Shown here in pieces: positions 15,564-32,993 of a stretch of DNA of 34,466 nucleotides (position 1 is its first letter; each line of letters begins with the position of its first letter). Below the pieces are notes generated by a model, which did not search any database, had not been told where the DNA came from, and was given only the letters and a program-made list of their open reading frames with translations. The stretch is from Perkinsus marinus ATCC 50983. Its lineage: Eukaryota; Perkinsozoa; Perkinsida; Perkinsidae. The stretch is taken from assembly GCF_000006405.1 (NCBI RefSeq), contig NW_003201716.1:1-34466 (forward strand). The letters are read 5' to 3'. The position numbers and the translations under genes were made by a program.

Positions 15564-18111
15564 TCAGCCGCCTGCAGTAGCCGCTGGGGACGCTCGCTCG
15601 GGGTTCCGAGGGGCCATAACGTGAGCGTTCTCTCCTGCATCTTCCAGTTCGAATTTGAATGTACGACTAAGAGGCTCGGCTCGAGAGATCTTCAGCACCT
15701 ACACCACCAAAGCTGTCTCTCGAAAGGAGGCAACTGCAAACGCTCACCAATTGAGCTCCTCCTCCTCCTCCTCCGGCCGTGCCCTTCAGGGCTTCGCGTA
15801 CGAGTGCATCCCGGACTAGTGCGAAGTGATGTGGTGATACATCAACCTCTTCACACCACGCAAGTTCCTGCTCGCCTAGATTCTTGACACACTCGGATTT
15901 CACCTGTCAATGAGGTGCCGGGTTCGATCCCTGGTGAGGGTATTTTTTCTCACAATATCCTTATTGACTCGTCGCTTCCTAAGAACATGTTTCCTCATCC
16001 ATGCATCTGGTATGGTGCCTTGACGTGCTGGTGCATCGATAGAGGCCGTCTCCTCCGACTTGATCCCTTCCAGCTCCTCTAGCCTGTGTTCGATCCTCTG
16101 TTCCTCCAACAGTAACTGCTCGATAATTGACAACGGGCCGGTAGCATAAAATTCCCCGAACTCCTTTCGAGCCAACACTCCTTAATAATTGACAACGTGC
16201 CGGTTGCATAAAATTCCCCGAACTCCTTTCGAGCCAACACTCCTTAATAATTGACAACGTGCCGGTTGCATAAAATTCTCCAAACTCCTTCCAAGCCAAC
16301 ACTCCTTAATAATTGACAACGGGCCGGTTGCATAAAATTCCCCAAACTCCTTCCGAGCCAACACTCCTCAATAATTGACAACGGGCCGGTTGCATAAAAT
16401 TCCCCGAGCTCCTTCCGAGCCAACCCTCCTCAATAATTGATAACGGGCCGGTAGCATAAAATTCCCCAAACTCCTTCCGAGCCAACACTCCTTGATAATT
16501 GACAACGTGCCGGTTGCATAAAATTCCCCGAGCCGAATCTACCACCACTTACTTGTTTGAACTCCTCACAGTCGTCCTTTGAATCAAAAAACCTTTCCAC
16601 AGGTCGGAGAAGTCGACTCAAGATTTGCCCTAAGCCACATACATTCTCATCACAAGTCACCACACTACCAACACACCTGCACGCGTATGTGCATTCACAG
16701 GAGGGGGTGCAGGAACTCCCCCACCCCCCGCTGATGCACTGCACGGCGGCTGTTGCAGAACCATCTGTCGAGCCACAACATAACGCTTCATTTCCTCACG
16801 AAGGGACAACCGCGCGTTGTAGGCCAACAGGACATCTGCCAGCACTCGTCAACGACGACTTTTCCAACACCGTCCTCACCAGCCTTGATTTTGGTGTCCT
16901 CGGGTCGATCTGAGGGGTTGAACTCCATATCTGCGAGAAGGAGTTCCGCGCAGTCATCGTAGTCCACTTCGAAGTCCCCTCTTCTTGGCGTATAGCCTGG
17001 TATGAACCTGTTGACGATCACTGTTGGAGAAGGAATATATCCTCCCTTTCCTCGGCTGAGCTCAGAAGTTTCCAAAGCTTAGTATAGGAGTTTATATACG
17101 AAGTGCCGAAATTTCCCCACAAATTTCATATTGTCACCAACAGTTGCATATTTCCCCGTACTGCGAGTCGTCATGAAGACCCCAGAAATTTCCACCGGCA
17201 AACTTACTTATCAACATCACTAGAGGCTGCTGCAGCAACGCTTCTTTTCCTCTTGCCCAGGACCGAGTCCACCACCTGTTTTGCATCTCAAAAGATTCCC
17301 GCACTATGAAGGATATTCCTCACCGGACCATCGTGGTCAGCCATGGGGTTCATCACAGAGCAGTGCCCATCAGCCTCGAGAACCTGCCCAGCTATGGAGT
17401 CGTTGGAGGCAGCCTTCCTAGTCGACGGGGATGCTTCCCACGCAGAGTACCTGCATGAGGACGGTCGATGAAAGGGCTGGAAAAATTGAAGGTGTTACAG
17501 TTGCATAAACCGTGATCGACATTGTGCTGGAGTGATCTCCTTTTCCGAGTCCGCTCCAGCTTGCCGCATGCGTGCCAACACATCGTCCCATGACCCAACG
17601 CCAACCTAGCCAAGGTCTGATGTGCTCAAGGTGTGGTATGAGTAGTTCACCTTTGCCACGGCGTCTAGCAAGGCCAGTGTATCCACGACTGTCCATGGGG
17701 ATGATTCATCGGACGAGGGATCGACTTGGGTGGTATCTTAGATGTGTGAATACTAAGCAGCGAAGGGGAAGCTACTGCAACTACCACCTCGTAAAGGCTG
17801 TGAGTCTCGAGATGTTACAAAGTTAAGCGGAGGTATCACACAATATGGATCTTGCTGGTGGGCGTCTGAGGAGACTGTCATCCGAAAGGTCCATGGTTCG
17901 ATCCCGGGCCCCTCCCCCTCACCTGATGTTGCGAAGCACGTCCCACAGTAGTCCTTGTCACTGCATCTGATGTGGCCTTCGTCCTTCAGTAAAGATACAC
18001 CACAATTAGAGCACGTCGTGCCTGAGGAACGTCGAGGCTCTTCCCTTCCTATGGGTTGGGAAGCGCCTTACGAAAGTTGCCTCCTTTTTCTTGAAGTTTT
18101 AACGCTGACAT
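15564..18111 (-). CDS. ADA2: Transcriptional adaptor ADA2 (SAGA-type), 13 exons, 476 residues
   Basis: Nuclear adaptor that couples the GCN5 acetyltransferase to chromatin. Exons: 18072-18111, 17923-18021, 17788-17874, 17651-17736, 17499-17605, 17324-17450, 17208-17275, 16880-17007, 16677-16835, 16553-16629, 15954-16115, 15748-15903, 15564-15698; every join keeps phase. Domains in order: a ZZ zinc finger (TTCSNCG...IRCSDKDYCGTCF, then DPYCVIPPLNF, residues about 15-70); a SANT domain (W90 to about 139, VGVGSWDDVLARM); the diagnostic ADA2 block (GYTPRRGDFEVDYDDCAELL, about 208-250, then YNARLSLREEMKRYVVARQ); LLRPVERFFDSKDDCEEF then EEQRIEHRLEELEG; and a SWIRM-like C terminus (about 381-432). 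Ten introns are 44-51 nt; the others are 198-437 nt or hold repeats. The last exon is the weakest part: a 49-nt intron could instead lead into the following gene. Confidence 0.87.
15904..15953 (-). other. 50-nt ADA2 intron resembling an antisense tRNA 3' half
   Basis: On the plus strand it reads as a T-arm (loop GGTTCGATCC at 15921-15930 with a 5-bp stem containing one G-T pair), a seven-base acceptor-like strand, one base and a T6 run at 15943-15948. No matching 5' acceptor or D-arm was found upstream, so it is not a complete tRNA gene. Confidence 0.65.
16122..16532. repeat. 62-bp minisatellite, 6.6 copies, filling an ADA2 intron
   Basis: Units start at 16122, 16184, 16246, 16308, 16370, 16432 and 16494, exactly 62 bp apart; the last is cut after 39 bp. 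Each begins (A/G)ATAATTGACAACG. Copies differ at only a few positions. The array occupies 411 of the 437 bases of the intron 16116-16552 between LLRPVERF and EEQRIEH exons of ADA2. Because 62 is not a multiple of three, it gives overlapping spurious frames. Confidence 0.95.
17040..17165 (-). repeat. Dispersed AT-rich repeat in an ADA2 intron
   Basis: In gene sense it reads GGGGAAATATGCAACTG, TTGGTGACAATATGAAATTT and then GAGCTCAGCCGAGGAAAGG. It makes up most of the 200-nt intron 17008-17207, while neighbouring introns are 44-51 nt. Confidence 0.65.
17875..17922 (-). other. 48-nt ADA2 intron resembling an antisense tRNA 3' half
   Basis: Intron within the ZZ finger. The plus strand carries GGTTCGATCC at 17896-17905 with a GGGCCCC-rich acceptor-like flank. 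There is no T-run here. The gene-sense order, GTGAG donor then GATCGAACC then a GACAG acceptor, matches the intron at 15904-15953. Confidence 0.6.
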
Positions 18112-19478: not shown

Positions 19479-20316
19479 TGCAGGTTACATGAAATTGGTT
19501 AGCAGCTTAGGTACAGGTAGTATAATAGGGAGGATTATTAATTAAGTATTTACGAGATACATTTGTCCAAAATTGCTTGAGTTATATCGGTCGCATAATC
19601 CTTTATCTTCAGCCATTCGCTTGGACTCACCTTCCAGCGTTTCAAATAACCCATCAATTTATCTGGATGATAACGCAAGCATGCTTCACGCACTACTTTC
19701 TTTCGTTCGCTATCTGATTGTGTTTCGTGTAGCCACATAGGATTTGTCCGAGGCCCGTCTGGCCATGGTATATCCTTATACGTTACCGTCGCTCCTTCTG
19801 CTCGCGTTAGAAATACTTGCCATGCTTCGGTTAGTGCTCGTCGTTTGTGTTCATGAGGGTCGAAATTGCTTCTAGCATGCTCTTGTCTCTTGCGTCTACA
19901 CTCCGTTTCGTTATATCCGCCCGGTCGTGCTCGTTTATACGTCGGCTTCGCCTCGGATGTTTCATTAACGTCATACATTCTCAGCAATTTCCGATCATCA
20001 ACTCCTAGCTCGAATACTCTGTCAGACCTAATGCTTTTCAACTTCACTCCGTTCAGGATTCCTTCTCGAGCCTTCAGTTGTCCGATTCGTCCATCCATAA
20101 GATATTCTCGGAGCTTAATGTCGTTAGCACCCAATGCAGGCAGTGGAGTAAGTAATACATGGTAACATCTGGGATGACATTTCTGTATGAGCTGTTCAAA
20201 ATTCGAGTCGAATGTAGTCGGCTTTCGATGTGTCATGGAAAGATTCGATACACTGGACTATATTCAAGTATAAATAGTAATACATTTGTTCGCCAAACTC
20301 AACTCCGTAGTAACTA
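19479..20316. repeat. 838-bp direct repeat, copy 1
   Basis: Matches 21525-22362 at a constant offset of 2046; the only difference I found is G at 19491 versus A at 21537. It contains the whole J-domain gene plus about 70 bp at each side. Beyond 20316 similarity drops sharply but does not vanish: GTTCTTGATA recurs in both right flanks. Confidence 0.95.
19550..20236 (-). CDS. J-domain protein resembling the NFKBIL1 C-terminal region, copy 1
   Basis: A 228-aa intron-less protein. The C-terminal third fits the IkB-like/J-like module found in NFKBIL1 and many fungal proteins: an aromatic AWQVFLTRAEG helix, the YKDIPWPDG strand, then REACLRYHPDKL with the HPD triad at residues 190-192 and a closing helix ITQAILDKC. 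J modules stimulate Hsp70-type chaperones; the NFKBIL1-like branch may have other partners. The N-terminal 130 residues are basic with no recognised fold. It lies on the same strand as the transposon genes and is duplicated at the protein level without change, so it may be an element cargo gene. It could also be a member of a host family. Confidence 0.8.
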   Translation of the reverse strand: MTHRKPTTFDSNFEQLIQKCHPRCYHVLLTPLPALGANDIKLREYLMDGRIGQLKAREGILNGVKLKSIRSDRVFELGVDDRKLLRMYDVNETSEAKPTYKRARPGGYNETECRRKRQEHARSNFDPHEHKRRALTEAWQVFLTRAEGATVTYKDIPWPDGPRTNPMWLHETQSDSERKKVVREACLRYHPDKLMGYLKRWKVSPSEWLKIKDYATDITQAILDKCIS

Positions 20317-21524
20317 CTTCGTTCTTGATAATAACTTGTATACATTTATGCACAAGTCATAATTTCAGTGGCTTCAATGACATTCCTCTCGCTATTTATC
20401 CCCACTAACTACACATTACTTTTCTCTACCTCTCCATATGTTTCTACAACCTATTATTCAACTTAAAAATGCCAGTCATGAAATCTAATAACACCCTTTC
20501 TTATCGTATAGTACATCTTTACATATTCCACATCACATCATATGCAAGCACAATTCATGAGCATAGCCTTCCATCCACTAACTGTTATCCACTCGTCTTC
20601 AATTCATCTTCATACAATTTCGCAATTACTTCTTCCAATTTCGTCCTTTACACTAGCTTATCACGCATGTGTCATGCCTTACGCATTCAACTCCACTAAA
20701 CGCTTTCCCCTTCTAAGACAAGTTGTTCATGTAGCGTCTCAAATGTACTTGGTTCCTTCTACCTAAGCATTTCTACGCGGGCTATGCTCATGTTCACGGA
20801 GATATGACGTGGAGGAAGTCAGGTATTTTGAGGTCCGATAAGGCGAGAAAATGTGTCCAGCTAGGCCGTGAACCGATTGCATCAGTCCGACGGACTTTAC
20901 ATCACTTACAATGCTGCTAGAAACTGCCAAGGTCATACTTTTCCTCATCGCCATCGCTTTACGTACGTACATTGTGTGTCACGTAGACCCTATCATTCTC
21001 TGGTCAGGTAGCTCGCCCCTGCAAGTGCCAAGAACCTCGCTGTCCACGCTATCAAGCTTCTAACCTTGTACGACTCCCGTCGTCACAGCAAGGCCCTGGC
21101 AACGGTCACTACAGTTGGTCTACAGTATGTATGCGCCACAGGTTCTCGCATCACCAACGTCCCTTCCACGTTCTCCGCTCAGCTTTATTCACGTATGTAC
21201 TATCTGCGAAGCGCATGTTCAACGGTCGTTTATGCATATGTATTTCAGGTATCCTCCAATTTCGTCTGCTCGTTCACCGTTCGCCAACGTATCCCTAGTA
21301 GGGATTCCCCACTACAGCGTTATTACTGCTACCTCAAATTTCCGACATATACAACACAAGGGACAGTATAACAAATACTCAGCTGAGGTTTGTTAACATG
21401 CGGTAATATTTCGCTGTTCACAATTACATTATAGCTTTTATGCCGACTTTGTCTTAGAACATCGTATGCGGAGACTGCTCTCCGCAGTGGCAACTGAAGT
21501 CTACAATGCCGAAGACGACCGTAA
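20317..21524. other. Spacer between the two J-protein copies
   Basis: About 1.2 kb, pyrimidine-rich on the plus strand in its left half. No convincing coding exon. It contains a perfect hairpin at 21467-21486 (8-bp stem TGCGGAGA, loop CTGC), 38 bp from the start of the second repeat copy. Confidence 0.5.
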
Positions 21525-22362
21525 TGCAGGTTACATAAAATTGGTTAGCAGCTTAGGTACAGGTAGTATAATAGGGAGGATTATTAATTAAGTATTTACG
21601 AGATACATTTGTCCAAAATTGCTTGAGTTATATCGGTCGCATAATCCTTTATCTTCAGCCATTCGCTTGGACTCACCTTCCAGCGTTTCAAATAACCCAT
21701 CAATTTATCTGGATGATAACGCAAGCATGCTTCACGCACTACTTTCTTTCGTTCGCTATCTGATTGTGTTTCGTGTAGCCACATAGGATTTGTCCGAGGC
21801 CCGTCTGGCCATGGTATATCCTTATACGTTACCGTCGCTCCTTCTGCTCGCGTTAGAAATACTTGCCATGCTTCGGTTAGTGCTCGTCGTTTGTGTTCAT
21901 GAGGGTCGAAATTGCTTCTAGCATGCTCTTGTCTCTTGCGTCTACACTCCGTTTCGTTATATCCGCCCGGTCGTGCTCGTTTATACGTCGGCTTCGCCTC
22001 GGATGTTTCATTAACGTCATACATTCTCAGCAATTTCCGATCATCAACTCCTAGCTCGAATACTCTGTCAGACCTAATGCTTTTCAACTTCACTCCGTTC
22101 AGGATTCCTTCTCGAGCCTTCAGTTGTCCGATTCGTCCATCCATAAGATATTCTCGGAGCTTAATGTCGTTAGCACCCAATGCAGGCAGTGGAGTAAGTA
22201 ATACATGGTAACATCTGGGATGACATTTCTGTATGAGCTGTTCAAAATTCGAGTCGAATGTAGTCGGCTTTCGATGTGTCATGGAAAGATTCGATACACT
22301 GGACTATATTCAAGTATAAATAGTAATACATTTGTTCGCCAAACTCAACTCCGTAGTAACTA
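21525..22362. repeat. 838-bp direct repeat, copy 2
   Basis: Second copy of 19479-20316 in direct orientation, with one difference found by eye. The right border is abrupt after CCGTAGTAACTA. Confidence 0.95.
21596..22282 (-). CDS. J-domain protein resembling the NFKBIL1 C-terminal region, copy 2
   Basis: Translation identical to the copy at 19550-20236 over all 228 residues, including the HPD triad at 190-192. The one base difference between the repeat copies lies outside the coding frame. Either the duplication is recent or gene conversion keeps the copies alike; the diverged flanks favour conversion. Both copies remain open, so both could be expressed. Function in the element is unknown. 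Confidence 0.8.
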   Translation of the reverse strand: MTHRKPTTFDSNFEQLIQKCHPRCYHVLLTPLPALGANDIKLREYLMDGRIGQLKAREGILNGVKLKSIRSDRVFELGVDDRKLLRMYDVNETSEAKPTYKRARPGGYNETECRRKRQEHARSNFDPHEHKRRALTEAWQVFLTRAEGATVTYKDIPWPDGPRTNPMWLHETQSDSERKKVVREACLRYHPDKLMGYLKRWKVSPSEWLKIKDYATDITQAILDKCIS

Positions 22363-22700
22363 ATGAGTTCTTGATAGTTACTTATATATATATGACTGTA
22401 TTCTTGCGAAAGCCACCCTTATGCTCGGTGTCTATCATGCTTTTGCTCAACGCTTCATGAATAGTAAGCCTCTCGATGTCTGAGGGCTGAATATTAGGGC
22501 TTAATATTGTAGCCAACTCATAGGAGAAAAGTAGTTATTGAGGCCGGCTCGGTACCTGCAAAAATTGTCGATATTGCGTGGCTCTTGGTATCTATCGACA
22601 ATTCGCGTTACCTTACTCAGGTCAGCATCCCTATCCATAATGTCTGCCGTACCGAAAGTGAGGAATGGATAGATGCATATGTGACTCACATAATGTGAGA
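22363..22700. other. Non-coding spacer before the tandem array
   Basis: About 340 bases right of the second J-protein repeat, with no coding signal seen. It may contain a worn first unit of the array. Confidence 0.4.
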
Positions 22701-23898: not shown

Positions 23899-26800
23899 TT
23901 ACCTGCTACTTTGTTGCTGTACCCAACCCCATGCTGCGAGCCGTTCCTTTGCAGTTGGGACTGTATTATACCGCATACATGCAGTAATCCATGTTTGCTC
24001 AACTTCCAAACGTGCCCTCCTTTGTTCTTCCTTAGATACTCCCAACGTATCAAAACCAATAACATACGCGACTATCCCAAACGGCCGTAAATGGATGGCG
24101 GTTGAAGAAGCGCCTGGGGTCGCGCCTCTATTATGTTCGTGCAATCTACGGGGTAAATTCTTCGTCTGCCCGATGTAAGTCTTTGATGGAAATGGGATAG
24201 ATACCAACAAGTATACCGCTCCTCCTATAGGCTTTGCCACTGGAATATTTCTCGTCGGTAGAGGATGATATTGCATATTCACTCGTCGTATAGCATCTCT
24301 CGCGGCTGAATGGCCCACGTTTGTCGAGTCCAACACGTGTTCAATATACAAGTCCCATTGACTAACCTAAAGATAGATGTTATATACTCAAATTGTCGAC
24401 ATAAGATCTATAGTTCGAATCAATGCTTACTTGTGTCAGCAATGCTCCTATTCCATTAACGTTCTCTAGCATGCCCCCGATTAACGTGACATCCCTTAGG
24501 CGCTTCACGCGGGAAAATAATACATACACTTGGCTTTTCAACCATAACGTGAAATCAGACTCAGTTAATGATATTCGGCTGGCAATTTTATTCAACGTGT
24601 CACCAATGACTTTATGTATCGTGCATGAAATATAAGGTCGAAGGGGATATTGGAAACGTCGACCACTGCCTCCAGCCAATCTCTCTGTAGGAGAAGCTTG
24701 TTTATACACTTTCACGCGCCTCCAACCCAATCTTTCAACGTCTACTGCTTCAGGTACATGTCTCTGGCTTACCGGCGCAACATAAACAGTAATCGCATCA
24801 CCATCAAATGCTGGAAACTCAGCAACTTTGCACAATTGCGAGTTCCAGAACTGTCTTCCAGAGTCATTAGCTACGAATTGAAGTAAGCCTCCATCTAGTA
24901 GTGTTAACTCTTCGGCGAATCTTGTTCGAGATGACATCTCGGCTCTTACATTCTCGTTCGCTTCTTGCCACAATACGCCATTATCCACTGTGAATTCGTC
25001 AAAGGCTTTTAGAATCATCGCATGTCGACCTCTACTTCTCTCATAAGTAATGAAATCATTTTCGGCAATTTCTTCGGCTCTCTTCTTACCCACAACACGC
25101 AGCACATCTGGCTCTAGCATATTCCAATCAGCAAGTGTTCGACAGTGGCTCTGAATGAGCTGCTTGCATTCATCTACTTCCGTTGATGAGGGAGGAGTCT
25201 TCCGCATTATTTCTAACACTCTTTTCAGGTATTTGCATGTCGCAGCCCGCACCTCTCCAACAAGGACCACGGGCTTAAAGGTGGTCAACAACATTGTTCC
25301 AGTGAAGATCGACGCTTTTCGGATAGGAGGTAACTGTAAATGGTCACCCGTCGCAAAAATTATTTTTCCTCCATACGGGGCGGACGATCCATGGACGTAC
25401 TGTAAAATCCGATCAATCACGTCCAAAATATCGACTGGAATTGTGCCAATCTCATCGAAGATTATCATATCGAGACACTCCAAAAACTTCAAACCCGTTG
25501 AAGTAGCTCCTAATTTCCCGATAGCTGACTCGGCGGCTGCGGACGTCGTCGTATAGTGGATAGGAATTTTAAACACACTATGTATATGACGTCCACCCAA
25601 AGCACATGATCGCTCCGCAGCTAAGCTCGTGAAAAGTACATGAAGGCCTTTCGATAACCCGTATGCAGCCGCTTGCGCAATGACATGCGTCTTTCCGCTT
25701 CCCGCAGGCCCACAGAGTAACAATCCTCGTTGATATGCCACGGACCCAGAAAGATAGATGTCGATATGTTTCACACAACTGTCCATAGCTACCTCTTGCG
25801 ACCGCAACGAATCCATGCTCTGTTCCTCTGCTCTGTGTATTTCAGGCCTCCACTCCAGCGGCTCATCCGCTGATGCTCTACGAAGATCTTCTTCACTTGG
25901 GAGGCCAGGTATATTCATATTCGACAGTGCCTCTATTAGTCTTCCCCGTGTATCTTTCAGCTCTTCTTCGCACTCTCTATACATCCTGCAACTGATCGCT
26001 CTGTCGAGTACAAGTGGTGTAGCTGCATATACAATATTGTTTTCCTCCAACAATTCCGTAAGACAGTTCTTCGCATTACATACATCCCTATCGAATGTTC
26101 TCGTCCCTCCTGGGATGTATAATAATTGCTCGGTAATATATCGCCTCAATATTCCCGCTATTTCTTCTCCTCGCTTAGTTTCATCGTCTCCCACTAATTC
26201 TGCTATCCGGAATGACCGTGCTAAGTTACCGCAGCTGAAAAGATCAACCTCAGTCTCAAAACGTCCCAGGCTATACAGTAAGTGGATAAGAAATTTATGA
26301 CCAAAATGAGGGAGGGGAGATGAAAATACCACAACTCTTCGCTTGCTGTTATTGTCCACAAATCGCTTTCGTGCATCTTCATTAGAACCTAACACACTCA
26401 AAATCCTTCGCAGAACGTGTGCGGCTCGCTCGTCTCCTTCTGCCCGCTTTGTAGTATAATCAATAAGACGTGGAAGATACCGGTTTTGGACTCTGATTTC
26501 TTGTCCAGTTGCATCGATCCAACTCGATTCCAACACATCTATTGACACTCTAGCTTCATGTGAATTTAATCTTCTACCGTCAGCGCTTCTTCGTTCACGT
26601 AGAGGAATACTCCTAGCAGTAAACCACTTGGTGTATAATCTCAGACTGTCCACGTAGAGTAGTTCAGGCGGTCGCAATCCAAACTTTGTTATCGGGTCGG
26701 GATGGATCTCGCTCCTAGCCGAATCGTAAGCAAGTACCTCTTGCGATCTAGTAAACTGTCGCCATTCAGGAAGTGCGAGACTTCTTCGCCAAGTTACTCC

Positions 26801-29800
26801 TTGCGGCTGGTCTCCCTCGGAGAATTCCCCATGTTTTTTCTGTCGGACAACACCACTCCTACTTTCCGGTGGATTTGTATTCACGTGGATATAATCTGCA
26901 TCAGAGTACACGTAGTCGTATCCTTCCAGTACAAAGCAGCTTTCAGATAAGCTTATGGTTTTTCCAGTCACCTCTCGCCTATGTTTTTGTTTGTCAGATT
27001 CTCCTGCTCCACCTGGCCCAACCTTCACATTTTCAAAACCACTCTCGGGATGTGCTTCGCCGCTTCTGCTCAACTGCACTTCATTCGTGGCCGCACTTGC
27101 CGTGAAAGATAATTTACTCCTCTCCTCAACGCCAGCAGCATATTTGGCAAGATATCGCGCAGCAAAATATGTTGAACAAATCAACAAATTCATCGACCCA
27201 CGTAAGAGAGCGAATAGAGGTCCGTTGAGAGGGCTAAAATGTTCATTTTTCATTGCAGGATACACGTGTTTACCAGTCCGAAGAAGCTCATGATAAACGA
27301 CATCCTCAGTGCCCTCAATCCTACCTGCCAGACCCGTTTCTATGAGGATATTCAAAGCCTCAGGTGAGTGGTGAACTTCTATTTCCTCATACCCATACGC
27401 ATAGCTCTGTGGCCTCTGAGGGAATCGGCACTTCCACTCGCCTTCTCCGTTAATTCTACTCCTCTTCATACATCTAAATTTCCCTTTTGCGCAGTCATGT
27501 GTCTGAACCCTAGAAGCGGTGTGAATAAGACTCTCAAAATCTTTATATCCTTCAACAAGCCCAAACTCTGTCAGCTCAGCTTCCTCGCCGAATAAATGTG
27601 ACAACGATGCGCTAACTCGTTCGCGTACTATCATCGAACTATTTGATTCATTGGTCCAAATCAGACTATGAACGTGTGGTAAATTACCAGCTTCATTTTG
27701 AAATTCGAAACGCCACCACACTTTTACCGTACACCCTAAAACTCCCCCTTTCTCGATCGCGTGCATCACGGCCTTAACCGTTTTAACCCATGCCCGTAAC
27801 ATCAAATTCAAGCTTCCCTGTACATGCGCTCGATATTCCTCAGGTGAACATTCTAAACGACTCGCTTCGAGAGCTTCAAATATTTTCCGAAGCCCTGGAC
27901 ATAACCTCTGATTCGGAGTTAAGGTAAGGAAATATGTCACTCGGGGCTCATCTGTCTCTGCAAGGTCGGCAGCTAATTCCATGACCGTACGTCGAGATTC
28001 TGCTTGTTCGAATCGCAGTTGGTGTTCAAGTGTTTTTGCCTCGAACTGGCCACAGCTCTCGTGCAGAGCACAGAAACCTTTATGAAGAACTATCCGACTA
28101 TGACTTCGTCTCAGTAATAAATTAGTCATAGCATCAAAATAGAATTGCAGCATGCGGGGATCTGTTGATGCCAGCAATCGTCCGTTTCGGACTCGCGCCC
28201 TTATTTGTGCCACAATGCCTGCAAAACCATATCGCTTTGTAATTCCTTCTTCGTCATACAGCACGCTCGGCAGCGCTCCTGATATACTCAAATTATCATC
28301 GTTGTAGTGCCAGTATGCTGACGGAAACAATTCTCCTTCAGGTTGTAGAAGTGGGATCGACTCTCCGCTAGCCTTCGACACAACGCTTTGCAGAAAGCGT
28401 TTACTTGCAATACTACTTTCGTGCGCTCTACCAGGTCGCACAAGTAAGTTACAATGCCTATTCAACAGGATGTGACCGGATACATGGTGTAAAATATTAT
28501 TTGTAGGTTCCACAAACGTAGCACAACGACCAGCATTGCTGTAAGGAATCTCAGATGACATTTCGTCTATGCTTCTATCAGATTCACTGGAGCTACTTTC
28601 GGAACCCCATTGAGACTCTGCCTCTGCGAAGTACTCAGAGCTTGCCTCAGCAAAAGTAACGTCACTCCGGCTACTTCGCTCACTCAAGTCTTCCTCACTG
28701 CCAGTACTATTCTCCTCATCTTCAGGAACTCCACTACGATCTGCTTCAACAGAATAATACCCAAGCCTTGCATCCTCGCTCTCCAGTAAGTATATTCCAT
28801 GCTTTTCACAGATGCCAGCTGTACACGATGCCTCAGGACATGACCATGCTGCGTGTTTACTGCACCTCTCATGTCCGTCCTCCCTACCGCTTATGTTATA
28901 GCAACATCGCATTTTATCCCTCTTATGCTGGGCAACCAGAGGAGACTTATGTACCGCGCAATACATCACACCCTGACCTCCTGTATACTGTAGCAGAGCC
29001 AATCGGAGTGTATCTGCTTGTCCACCGCAACTTCGCCTATAAATCAACAGGTTCCATATTCCTCGCATGCGTCTCAGCTCGTCTTCGACTCTCCCGGGTG
29101 CGAGATACTTCCCTCGACGTCTCCGCTCCATCAAATACCAGTAAGTATTTTCTGTCCCTGGTTTAAATAAGCATTCTGCACTCCATCTATTCTGATTGCA
29201 ACGAATCCAATCATCATCAGCCCTAGAATCGTCTGTGCTGACCATACACAACCCAAAAACATCATCACCAATTGTAATACTTTCAGGTATCTCTGCAGCA
29301 CGACGTACTGATGTTCGGCTTGAGTCTGTAACTATCATCAATATACGGACATCCTGCCATTGCCGCATGCCGATAGATGGAGTGCTATTCGAGACCGATG
29401 CAGCAGTCAAGTGTATCCCTCTACTGTCATGGTAGACACAGTGCACCAAAGGTGAGCTCCAGTAGTACCTACCCAAATTCACCGCACTGTTGTAGCTTTC
29501 ATCTGGCCCGAAGTCCTCAGTAGCATCTGCAATATCCAACATCAACCTTTGTAGCGCTATGCCATCGCTCAATCGCTCGCGACATTTTGTAGGGATTTTT
29601 AAAATACTGCGTGTAACATACTCGAGAAGCTGTGCTCGTGGCTTAGATACCGTGTTTTTAGCAAGCAACGATGCTGCCTTCCAAATATCTGGCACACCGA
29701 TAGAACTTACTACATACAACCATAGGAGAGGAGTAAATCCCGAGTATCTCGGAATAGTGGGTAAGATCGGTCCTCGTCCTGATAATGGCGATGCAATAAC

Positions 29801-31294
29801 TAGAGTATTGAGGTATTCTGGTAGAGTACCGCTTCCCTCTCTTGCCTGCACTACATTGCTCGCATCTACGGCATTAAGATTGCTCGCACGACCTCCATAA
29901 CTTCTCTGCGTACCTTGCAATTCCCGTTTCCTATCTCTTAACAAATCAACACTTTCCCGTGCGCCAACAGTGGTACTCCCATATAATGCACTGCTCAATT
30001 TTTCAGGATCCCCAGCACTACGCACTACCGCCAGCTCCTCCGCAACCGGACCACTCAACGGGTCTTGTTCGATAGTGCTATGGAAGTAAGCATTCAGATC
30101 TTTCCTCTGCTCATATATCAATGCTTCTCTATCCGCCACTATCTCAGATGCTATGCTCCATTTTCGTCGTTCGCTTACAACCCAAGAAGATAACCCTTGA
30201 TATCCTCCACGTACTTCATTCATCTGCCACGTGTGCGATGAATATTTGGACTTCAAGCTTTGCAATACCGACGGGATCAAAACAACCGTGCCAAGTTGTT
30301 CACTGTAAGGCGATGGTAGACTCCCTCTGATAGGATTCTTTGGCATATGTAGATACTGCAAACCACAGCCTTTGCCATGATCAACACAAGTAAGTAAGAG
30401 TAACCCTTTTCCGCTGCATATTTGTACTGCACCAGCTACTTTATAACCATGCTGTGTCCATGGCTCAATGAAATCTCTCCGCATCCCACGAACCATTCGG
30501 AAGGCATCACTCCGGAATGCGCTAAACTCTGGAATATAGGCTTGTATAAGATGGCTGAACTGTATGCTCTTTGCATCAGTGGAATACTCTTGAGCTCCAC
30601 AAACACACATCACTGTCGGGATCGGATCATTCTCTAGTAAGTTGCGTACATGTACCAAGTCCGTGAATTCACTTAGCTCCCGTAAGCGCTTTATCTCAAC
30701 CGTTTTATCCACAAGACATACTGGAATTTCCTTTAGCGATACATGGCTGTATCCTTCCAGATACATCGCACGTGCCTCCCATTGTATCCTCAGAGTATCG
30801 GGGATAAGTCTCCAGTGCTCTTCGGGTGTTGAAGCTTCACATTCCGCATCGATCCTGAGAAAAGCCAGTGACCAGAGTACCGATGGCCATGCATCTTTCC
30901 ATTGTCCTTTGCTTTTTCTTCTCAGGTACTCTGCGCATTGTAGACACAGAGTGAACGCCTCTGGCCTATTGCTACGAATCTCCCGCAAATACCCGTATTG
31001 TCGGCTTTGTAATTCCGCTCCAGCAATGCATACCAAGGTAAGTGGTAACGATGGGGTGTCCGAACGCCAACAGTTTTGGCATTCTTCGCATTCGACCCCG
31101 TCCAATACAAGTTCATTCTCAGCAGCAACCGAATCCAATTCGACTCTATGGTCAGCTACTCCATCCGCATGCTCAGTTTCACTCCGCTGAGGCTTACAGC
31201 TGTCACATAAACTTATACTGCCGACGCTTTGCACGAACCTCTGACACTGTTGACAGCGGGCAGAGGAACGTTTCTTGCGAGAATAATATGGCAT
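23899..31294 (-). CDS. Helitron-type HUH Rep / PIF1 helicase with a spliced C-terminal GIY-YIG nuclease
   Basis: Predicted exons 24431-31294 and 23899-24366, joined in phase by a 64-nt intron (donor GTAAGC, acceptor CTTTAG); product about 2443 residues. Unspliced, the first frame stops at 24380 and the second lacks an ATG at its start. Order: zinc knuckle C14-x2-C17-x12-C30-x2-C33; a WPSVLWSL block; a Cys/His-rich module (about 775-835); an acidic Ser-rich linker (about 850-908); HNLLVRPGRAHESS-type N-terminal Helitron region; Rep motif FLTLT (about 1121), HUH motif H1207-V-H1209, catalytic Y1381-x3-Y1385 with K1384; PIF1 helicase with Walker A GPAGSGKT (1862-1869), DEIG, GDHLQLPP, TIHKVIGDTL and VLFSRVKR. 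The GIY-YIG part has VYL (2339-2341), YIG (2352-2354), R2361/R2362, a Glu at 2409 or 2411 and N2422. All catalytic residues are intact, so the element may be active. The Rep-helicase call is firm; the splice to GIY-YIG is a prediction. Confidence 0.9.
24367..24430 (-). other. Predicted 64-nt intron joining helicase and GIY-YIG exons
   Basis: In gene sense: donor CAA|GTAAGC and acceptor ATCTTTAG|GTTAG, phase 0 on both sides. Removal replaces the last 16 codons of the helicase frame with a 155-residue GIY-YIG tail. It is slightly longer than most host introns here, with the same border consensus. Confidence 0.65.
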
Positions 31295-31721: not shown

Positions 31722-32993
31722 TCATGTTGCTGAGGACGAACTCGATGATGACGACGACGAAGACGATGCAACCCCTTGTTGTTGGCTCGACGTCGCTTCT
31801 CTTGGACCAGTCCGCCGACCCGCTGATGTAGGTTTCATCTGACTTCCGCTTCTCCCATTCTGTGCTACACTTGTTCTCTCTCCCTCTGTTCGCACAGCAT
31901 TCTCCAAATGCGTTCGTTCGGCTAATCGAGCAATCGACTCTTCGTTAAAGCTCGCATTCACTTCTACGGCTCTATTGGCCTCATAGATCAGATGCTCCCA
32001 TTCTTCCCGTTTCTTTATGGTGGGCTTAATTTCTACTATATGCACTTTTATCTCGTTGACTATAGCGTGTGATCCGCCAGTTGTATGATTATCGTTTGTA
32101 GAGGCCGTCCGGAGGTCCGTCATCGATGGCTTGTACCATCCATAGATATCCCATCCACGCTGCAGGAGAGGCTGTGAGTCAGTACCGTTGATGCGTGATA
32201 CTATCCAATCCATCGTCTCTCTCAGCTCGAATACATCGATATCTTCATCCCGAAATGGATTCATCAATATGCCTGGCGGGAGAAAAAGCTTTGACCAAGC
32301 TAATCCCTGATGCTCACACTGCCCGCCTGGAAGCGAAGGAGAACATATCACCGAACGTAAGGCCCACGTGTTTCGACGAGCTCTAGCAATACAGAAGCAG
32401 TCTGTGTTAGAGCCGTACTGCCTATCACATGTATCTCCTGAGCATAGACCATCTTCCACCCATGTTGGTCCAAGGCTAATGAGACAATTCCGCATACCAA
32501 ACGCTTTGAATCCTGTATTCGATGCGATAGTTAATGGATTGATCAACCGTTCTTGATCGTACACAGTTGGAACTAAGTACTCTCGTGTACGGATGATCTT
32601 TACTCCTCCATCACCCATCTGACCTCGATAGCTTGGCTCAACAACGGAGAAAACTTGACCTAGCCGTGCGTCTCTGAAACGAAGTAAATTCGCTGTCTCT
32701 TGATGATTATCAGTGAGCACCACAAAAACGGAGCTCGTTTGAAGGCATTGGAAGACAAAAAAACGATCGTAGGCTATTTCAGTTGAGTGACGCACCGCTC
32801 TCTCCCGACTGATAAACCTCGTCATCCTCATCGGTTTTTCGTCACTCTTTTTACCATGTAGGAGCCTAGCAACCAAGCGAGTTTTCCTAGCAGCAATTCC
32901 CGTATCCTCTTCAGATATATCTTCTGCACTCCGAATGGTAAAATCACTTACCAATAAGGCGCCTTTTACAAGATTTGCTGGAAGAGCTGGCAT
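31722..32993 (-). CDS. Element-encoded accessory protein, possible OB-fold DNA-binding protein (423 aa)
   Basis: Single open frame of 423 residues on the same strand as, and 427 bp upstream of, the Rep-helicase gene. Residues about 75-145 alternate hydrophobic strands (YDRFFVFQ, FVVLTD, LGQVFSVVEP, VKIIRTREYLVP) in a way that could fit an OB fold. A Cys cluster follows: C184-x4-C189 and C199-x-C201 (CSGDTCDRQ...DCFC), then a RGWDIYGWYKP motif at 279-289. The C terminus is basic and ends in a Ser run of about 13. Some Helitron groups carry a replication-protein-A-like gene, so a single-strand DNA-binding role is plausible, but the match is to the pattern only. A nucleocapsid-like or capsid role is an alternative. 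Confidence 0.6.
   Translation of the reverse strand: MPALPANLVKGALLVSDFTIRSAEDISEEDTGIAARKTRLVARLLHGKKSDEKPMRMTRFISRERAVRHSTEIAYDRFFVFQCLQTSSVFVVLTDNHQETANLLRFRDARLGQVFSVVEPSYRGQMGDGGVKIIRTREYLVPTVYDQERLINPLTIASNTGFKAFGMRNCLISLGPTWVEDGLCSGDTCDRQYGSNTDCFCIARARRNTWALRSVICSPSLPGGQCEHQGLAWSKLFLPPGILMNPFRDEDIDVFELRETMDWIVSRINGTDSQPLLQRGWDIYGWYKPSMTDLRTASTNDNHTTGGSHAIVNEIKVHIVEIKPTIKKREEWEHLIYEANRAVEVNASFNEESIARLAERTHLENAVRTEGERTSVAQNGRSGSQMKPTSAGRRTGPREATSSQQQGVASSSSSSSSSSSSAT

Follow-up and report, generated by a model that had tools for sequence, protein, structure and literature searches.

The fused gene and its domains

The stretch analysed here (the window) comprises 34,466 nt of Perkinsus marinus ATCC 50983 DNA (contig NW_003201716.1). 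Its minus strand holds, at 23899–31294, a gene whose predicted product joins a rolling-circle Rep, a PIF1 helicase and a C-terminal GIY-YIG nuclease domain. An open reading frame (ORF) at 24380–31294 is intact and 2,304 amino acids long, and the domain matches in it bear out an earlier note on this DNA, which had described an intact Rep of the HUH/two-tyrosine type and a PIF1 helicase. The part assigned to exon 1 (24431–31294, minus strand, residues 1–2288 of the joined protein; based on the ORF, Pfam and alignments) carries an N-terminal region with several CxxC pairs, recognised by eye, the Rep (HUH, Y2) and the helicase.

The Rep region spans residues 960–1440 (26975–28417, minus strand). 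Its HUH histidines are H1207 (27676–27674) and H1209 (27670–27668), and its tyrosines are Y1381 (27154–27152) and Y1385 (27142–27140). The helicase matched PF05970 at residues 1858–1993 (25316–25723, minus strand, E 5.7e-14), and the helicase part matched PIF1 and Helraiser chains in a PDB profile search. The protein hence combines a two-tyrosine HUH and a PIF1-type helicase in a single chain, the mark of the Helitron superfamily in the broad sense. The match to PF14214 (Helitron_like_N) was borderline. With the cut-off at 28.9 bits, it scored 28.1 bits in the window and 31.5 bits, above this value, in the genome scan, and it covered only positions 84–191 of 191.

Exon 2 (23899–24366, minus strand) encodes the GIY-YIG tail, 155 amino acids plus the stop. 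This assignment is based on PF01541 (E 5e-7 for the frame 23902–24366), the alignment, the top-ranked SLX1 matches and a structure model. All seven residues checked were present (Y52, Y64, G66, R74, H78, N79 and E123). Within the core fold, the tail shows the Tyr, Tyr-x-Gly, Arg, His-Asn and Glu of the GIY-YIG superfamily.

The 64-nt junction

The apparent stop codon of the Rep-helicase frame (24380–24382) sits 13 nt ahead of the GIY-YIG frame. An interval of 64 nt (24430–24367, minus strand, GTAAGC...TTTAG) connects both frames from phase 0 to phase 0, exactly as the earlier note had described it. GT/GC..AG pairs of 30–300 nt around the gap were scored against a profile of 13 relatives (357 pairs, 53 of them open and in frame). 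This pair topped the 53 joins with 218.7 bits, followed by a runner-up with 204.2 bits; the unspliced sequence scored 99.0 bits. Moreover, the joined LLTQ|VSQWDLYIEHV aligns without gaps with LLTQSTQWDAYVRHV and with similar stretches of single-frame copies from the same genome (see the following subsection). Because of the top score and this gapless line-up, the interval is taken to be more than a chance arrangement, and it is probably an intron of the window copy, which would be removed by splicing. It is missing from the five single-frame sister copies.

The GIY-YIG frame had also been said to lack an ATG of its own. This has to be corrected, as an in-frame ATG is present at 24276–24274, at residue 31 of the tail and ahead of its catalytic core. 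The similarity to relatives begins before this ATG.

Copies in the same genome

A six-frame search with the tail over the window's own genome (54.46 Mb in 347 contigs; all counts are lower bounds) returned at least nine matches, and a search with the GIY-YIG family led to the same nine places. One of them, C135, repeats a part of C54 at 100% and was left out of the count. This leaves eight distinct loci: the window, C191 twice (C191a and C191b), C54, C4, C252, C118 and C188. At five of the eight, Rep, helicase and GIY-YIG lie in one uninterrupted frame of 2,586–2,669 amino acids. The copies on C118 and C188 are broken into several frames. By eye, the breaks in C118 resemble small frameshifts, of which one lies at a G run. 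No intron was evident in this copy, where no GT..AG join stood out.

As five of the eight loci encode all three parts in a single open frame, the fusion is independent of the window intron. Judged from the sequences, the fusion of Rep-helicase and GIY-YIG postulated by the earlier note is real; it is supported by these five copies and by fused proteins elsewhere. No host SLX1 was seen: all GIY-YIG matches listed in the genome fall in the eight loci. A canonical Helitron of the same genome (C267; L045, C267:183400–188400), which matches PF14214 with 211 bits, ends without a GIY-YIG tail and makes a useful control.

Relatives and conservation

Protein searches recovered the identical domain order in the tunicate Styela clava (seven proteins listed under six gene names) and in predicted proteins from JGI, ENA and Logan. 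Two of the JGI relatives carry the label 'predicted GIY-YIG superfamily endonuclease'. The near hits that carried a species name came from Perkinsus olseni, which was represented by two incomplete models (P0008 and P0012). No homologue with the GIY-YIG frame as a separate gene was found among the proteins returned; P0010, P0026 and P0027, seen as proteins only, end at the helicase. A scan of IMG/VR with the Rep alignment gave 46 pattern stretches and no relative.

The large alignment comprised 34 rows: 32 family rows (26 search proteins besides the window's own P0001, five copies from the same genome, and the window), the C118 piece and the C267 Helitron. The rows are not independent, with L010 nearly identical to P0007 and L009 to L011. 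The HUH and both tyrosines were found in 33 of 34 rows, including C267 and the C118 piece; P0012 has a gap there. In a smaller Rep alignment, H, H, Y and Y were invariant (14 of 14 rows).

The tail was present in 25 of the 32 family rows, and 20 of these 25 keep Y, Y, G, R, H, N and E at the aligned places. Among the seven rows without tail letters, four (P0008, P0012, P0017 and P0018) are cut off early or have the look of unusual gene models. The remaining three (P0010, P0026 and P0027) terminate at one and the same position past the helicase and make up a single clade next to P0009, the tail of which is without Arg and Glu. A loss of the tail is possible in this clade.

Between C54 and C191a, the ratio of nonsynonymous to synonymous substitution rates (dN/dS) was 0.072 for the tail, 0.055 for the helicase, 0.028 for the Rep and 0.156 for the N-terminus. 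The root of the Rep-helicase tree is unsure because C267, its sole outgroup, is very distant (branch of 6.24). The tail tree resembles the Rep-helicase tree in several groups, but no more than 5 of the 22 inner branches of the tail tree were starred, and P0009 was placed differently. An additional match to an OTU-like protease was found in P0002 (E 0.0051) and P0004 (precomputed), and none was reported for the window protein.

Kinship of the GIY-YIG tail

SLX1 is a structure-selective endonuclease subunit that cuts branched DNA. When a profile of 14 tails was compared with the PDB, the first five distinct sequences were all SLX1 (E 8e-12 to 2e-8), followed by two UPF0213 proteins and a weak match to endonuclease II. 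The GIY-YIG product of the window alone also matched SLX1 chains of the PDB. The model of the window tail had a predicted local distance difference test score (pLDDT) of 74.5 and showed strands and helices in GIY-YIG order. With this model, the first ten chains returned by Foldseek came from Slx1 or Slx1-Slx4 entries (probability of 0.91–1.00). The tail and SLX1 hence share a GIY-YIG core of equal type, with SLX1 on top in both profile and fold searches. The difference is that the window tail is fused to a Rep-helicase.

Comparison with Helitrons, Helentrons and other elements

Motif 2 of the Rep is published as (V/I)ExQxRG(S/L)(P/L)HxH, with L in Helitrons and S in Helentrons; the latter also have (F/Y)xR close by (PMC4067079). 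In our family, the stretch from the Gln to the first HUH His is 7–11 residues long in all 31 readable rows and mostly ends in G-N-L-P or G-N-K-A (P0012 and P0016 were unreadable). In C267, the stretch comprises five residues (GLPHLH loop), as in the published pattern. The Arg before motif 2 is kept in the family, usually after W-x or F-x. No S was found directly between G and P ahead of the first HUH His in the readable rows, nor was the canonical Helitron form ExQxRGLPHxH. By these motif signs, the family is typical of neither Helitrons nor Helentrons, because the Arg is kept but the Gln-His stretch is 7–11 instead of 5 residues long.

With Helentrons, as described in PMC4067079, the family shares one protein with Rep, PIF1 helicase and C-terminal nuclease, the Arg two residues ahead of the motif-2 E, and an additional ORF next to the Rep gene (in Helentrons RPA, here an ORF of no known family, termed ORF-B). 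The differences are a GIY-YIG nuclease instead of an apurinic/apyrimidinic (AP) endonuclease, the longer Gln-His stretch and the missing S before P-H. In the window frames and in L011, P0002 and P0003, Pfam reported GIY-YIG for each tail and an AP endonuclease family for none. The family was not filed as a Helentron, despite the Helentron-like nuclease after the helicase, because the AP endonuclease was absent in this Pfam test. With canonical Helitrons (C267; Helraiser, 7lcc), it shares the two-tyrosine HUH (YxxxY) and the PIF1 helicase in one protein. The C267 protein has no tail, a short loop and 211 bits to PF14214, whereas the window protein has a tail, a long loop and 28–31 bits.

GIY-YIG is also the endonuclease of Penelope retroelements (PMC6431247, PMC5718144). 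Like the predicted transposase described here, the main protein of these mobile elements has a GIY-YIG nuclease at its end. In the window, however, the Pfam scan showed no reverse transcriptase family, and a Rep and a helicase are encoded in its place. Both GIY-YIG-like endonucleases and rolling-circle Rep proteins are also carried by Terminons, which are giant retroelements of rotifers (PMC6431247). There, these are separate accessory ORFs of a retroelement, whereas here they form one protein with a helicase. For a Mariner element, a GIY-YIG protein encoded by an ORF of its own has further been reported (PMC3627910). No description of a Rep-PIF1-GIY-YIG fusion was found in the literature searched, which comprised parts of the sources, among them PMC4469406, PMC4522978, PMC12910113, PMC8504770 and PMC6213432, and had Repbase and most subscription journals outside its scope. 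Within this scope, the literature agrees with the earlier note, which knew of no Helitron-like transposase with a GIY-YIG tail.

Interpretation and rival explanations

The locus almost certainly encodes one large Helitron-like rolling-circle transposase with a CxxC-bearing N-terminus, an HUH/Y2 Rep, a PIF1 helicase and a predicted SLX1-type GIY-YIG nuclease. Taken as a whole, transposase and tail role together, this reading seems to us rather probable. The Rep would nick the DNA and transfer one strand via its tyrosines, and the helicase would peel off the transferred strand, as both reportedly do in Helitrons according to the work on Helraiser. The tail would cut the branched DNA that remains at the meeting point of the transferred strand with the target or the donor; for this step, which the element itself would then supply and which nuclease-free Helitrons would leave to the host, we can offer only a tentative case. 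The idea in the earlier note that the tail cuts the second strand or resolves intermediates is plausible.

Several points weigh against this interpretation. Five of the 25 tails (P0009, P0019, P0022, P0024 and P0025, the last cut short) are without at least one of the checked residues. Either the tail is dispensable in some lineages, as the three proteins ending at the helicase would suggest, or it was missed by their gene models. The dN/dS was estimable for one of seven pairs only, the other six being saturated at synonymous sites. The Foldseek E-values were weak (best 5.9e-3) and the tail model was moderate. The RING part of SLX1 was not seen: 28 residues follow the Pfam match, and Pfam reported no such family there. 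Finally, the copies compared yielded neither element ends nor target duplications, and some copies adjoin satellite arrays.

The main rival retains the fused transposase and lets the tail cut intact target DNA, as a second-strand or site-choosing nick. Target cutting is the role supposed for the GIY-YIG of Penelope and for the AP endonuclease of Helentrons. The C-terminal position of the nuclease, as in Helentrons (PMC4067079), and the use of a GIY-YIG endonuclease by Penelope retroelements (PMC6431247, PMC5718144) would fit with this. However, the nearest solved relatives of the tail, in profile and fold searches, belong to the branched-DNA cutter SLX1 (Penelope tails were outside this comparison). 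Because of this resemblance, cutting of branched DNA appears somewhat likelier than simple target cutting, which we regard as unlikely. It is more doubtful still that the tail binds DNA without any catalytic activity or is a decaying nuclease. The five tails with missing residues and the three proteins ending at the helicase point in this direction, but the 20 tails with all seven residues lie on several deep branches, and dN/dS of the tail was 0.07 in the single measurable pair.

Slightly less credit is given to the protein being the replication initiator of another large element (a virus-like, plasmid-like or subtelomeric unit) and not a transposase. The missing ends, two loci on a contig with long tandem satellites, the very long N-terminal part and the presence of ORF-B near several copies would be consistent with an initiator. 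The Rep-PIF1 order, the two-tyrosine HUH and the PF14214 match are Helitron traits, however, and the seven proteins of Styela clava and the lack of an IMG/VR relative in the scan with the Rep alignment also speak for a transposon. That the GIY-YIG is a separate gene following the Rep-helicase gene, with an 'intron' that arose by chance, is extremely improbable. The window frames are split by a stop and the tail frame holds an ATG, but there are the single-frame copies in the genome, the fused proteins elsewhere and the gapless similarity across the join. The separate-gene and read-through readings were both rejected on account of the five single-frame copies.

The family is read as a separate Helitron-like lineage that has such a nuclease where Helentrons carry an AP endonuclease. 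A broader version may be considered, with reservation: an old, separate eukaryotic rolling-circle lineage, with at least one Perkinsus-like alveolate and one tunicate among its hosts, whose own SLX1-type nuclease would cut the branched intermediate of strand transfer. To our knowledge, it is unsettled how eukaryotic rolling-circle transposons complete single-strand integration. With its fused SLX1-type nuclease, which is damaged or missing in side branches, the lineage makes this step directly testable; if the interpretation is true, such elements would be a natural system for testing how Helitrons bring integration to completion. The lineage further suggests that at least two unrelated folds have filled the nuclease slot after the helicase, the AP endonuclease in Helentrons and GIY-YIG here, with a parallel in retroelements.

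Neighbouring gene, 3' structure and repeats

ORF-B (31722–32993, minus strand, 423 amino acids) is a second gene on the same strand as the Rep gene. Relatives of it lie within about 6 kb of four of the seven other distinct copies: near C4, C252, C191b and C118, they are found on the same strand, 1.5–6 kb downstream of the Rep gene. Unlike in these copies, ORF-B of the window lies 0.4 kb upstream of the Rep gene. A head-to-tail arrangement or a circular permutation could explain the changed order. No relative was seen near C188, and the flanks of C54 and C191a were readable only over a short reach. In the genome, 21 matching stretches were listed, including the window's own and several with stops. 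ORF-B has conserved cysteines. The window protein matched no Pfam family and no PDB entry; one of five members gave a weak Pfam match (E 0.065). The fold model of ORF-B was unusable (pLDDT of 38), and a role in single-strand binding is only a guess.

Clean ends were looked for in several comparisons. C54 and C191a (8.7 kb, 92%) showed none and may be segmental duplicates. The same was true for three ORF-B repeats, two of which sit at the ends of contigs and may represent a single locus. For the Helitron ends (5'-TC, 3' hairpin, CTRR, A-T insertion), no two independent insertions gave clean ends among the copies compared.

In five sister copies, a conserved non-coding stretch of 218–233 nt follows ~75–540 nt past the stop of the fused gene (L011:107-339, L009:689-921, L014:518-744 and L010:370-597 on the minus strand, and L013:8703-8920 on the plus strand). 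Both sides were changed in 19 of 72 proposed pairs, compared with 10.4 in shuffles. The covariation score was 0.394 versus 0.258 in shuffles and 0.08–0.16 when slid. In the sense strand of the gene, on which the structure was predicted, 66 G-U cells were counted versus 12 A-C. The support for a structure is weaker than it looks, because the five rows include a nearly identical pair and also served to derive the structure. At E up to 1, the stretch was found neither in the window nor at C118 or C188. For the five sister loci, Rfam (E up to 1) returned nothing; for the window, it gave two chance-level matches.

Satellite-like tandem repeats of ~1.5 kb lie beside two element copies, on C191 (about 29.8–37 kb and 59–70 kb) and C54 (about 11.7–13.6 kb). 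The window itself contains a direct duplication of 867 nt (19479–20345 and 21525–22391, 99.1% identical). Both copies hold the same frame of 228 amino acids with a weak DnaJ match (PF00226, E 0.015). The duplication was not found at the other element loci examined. A tandem array with a 62-nt unit is located at 16053–16610 of the window.

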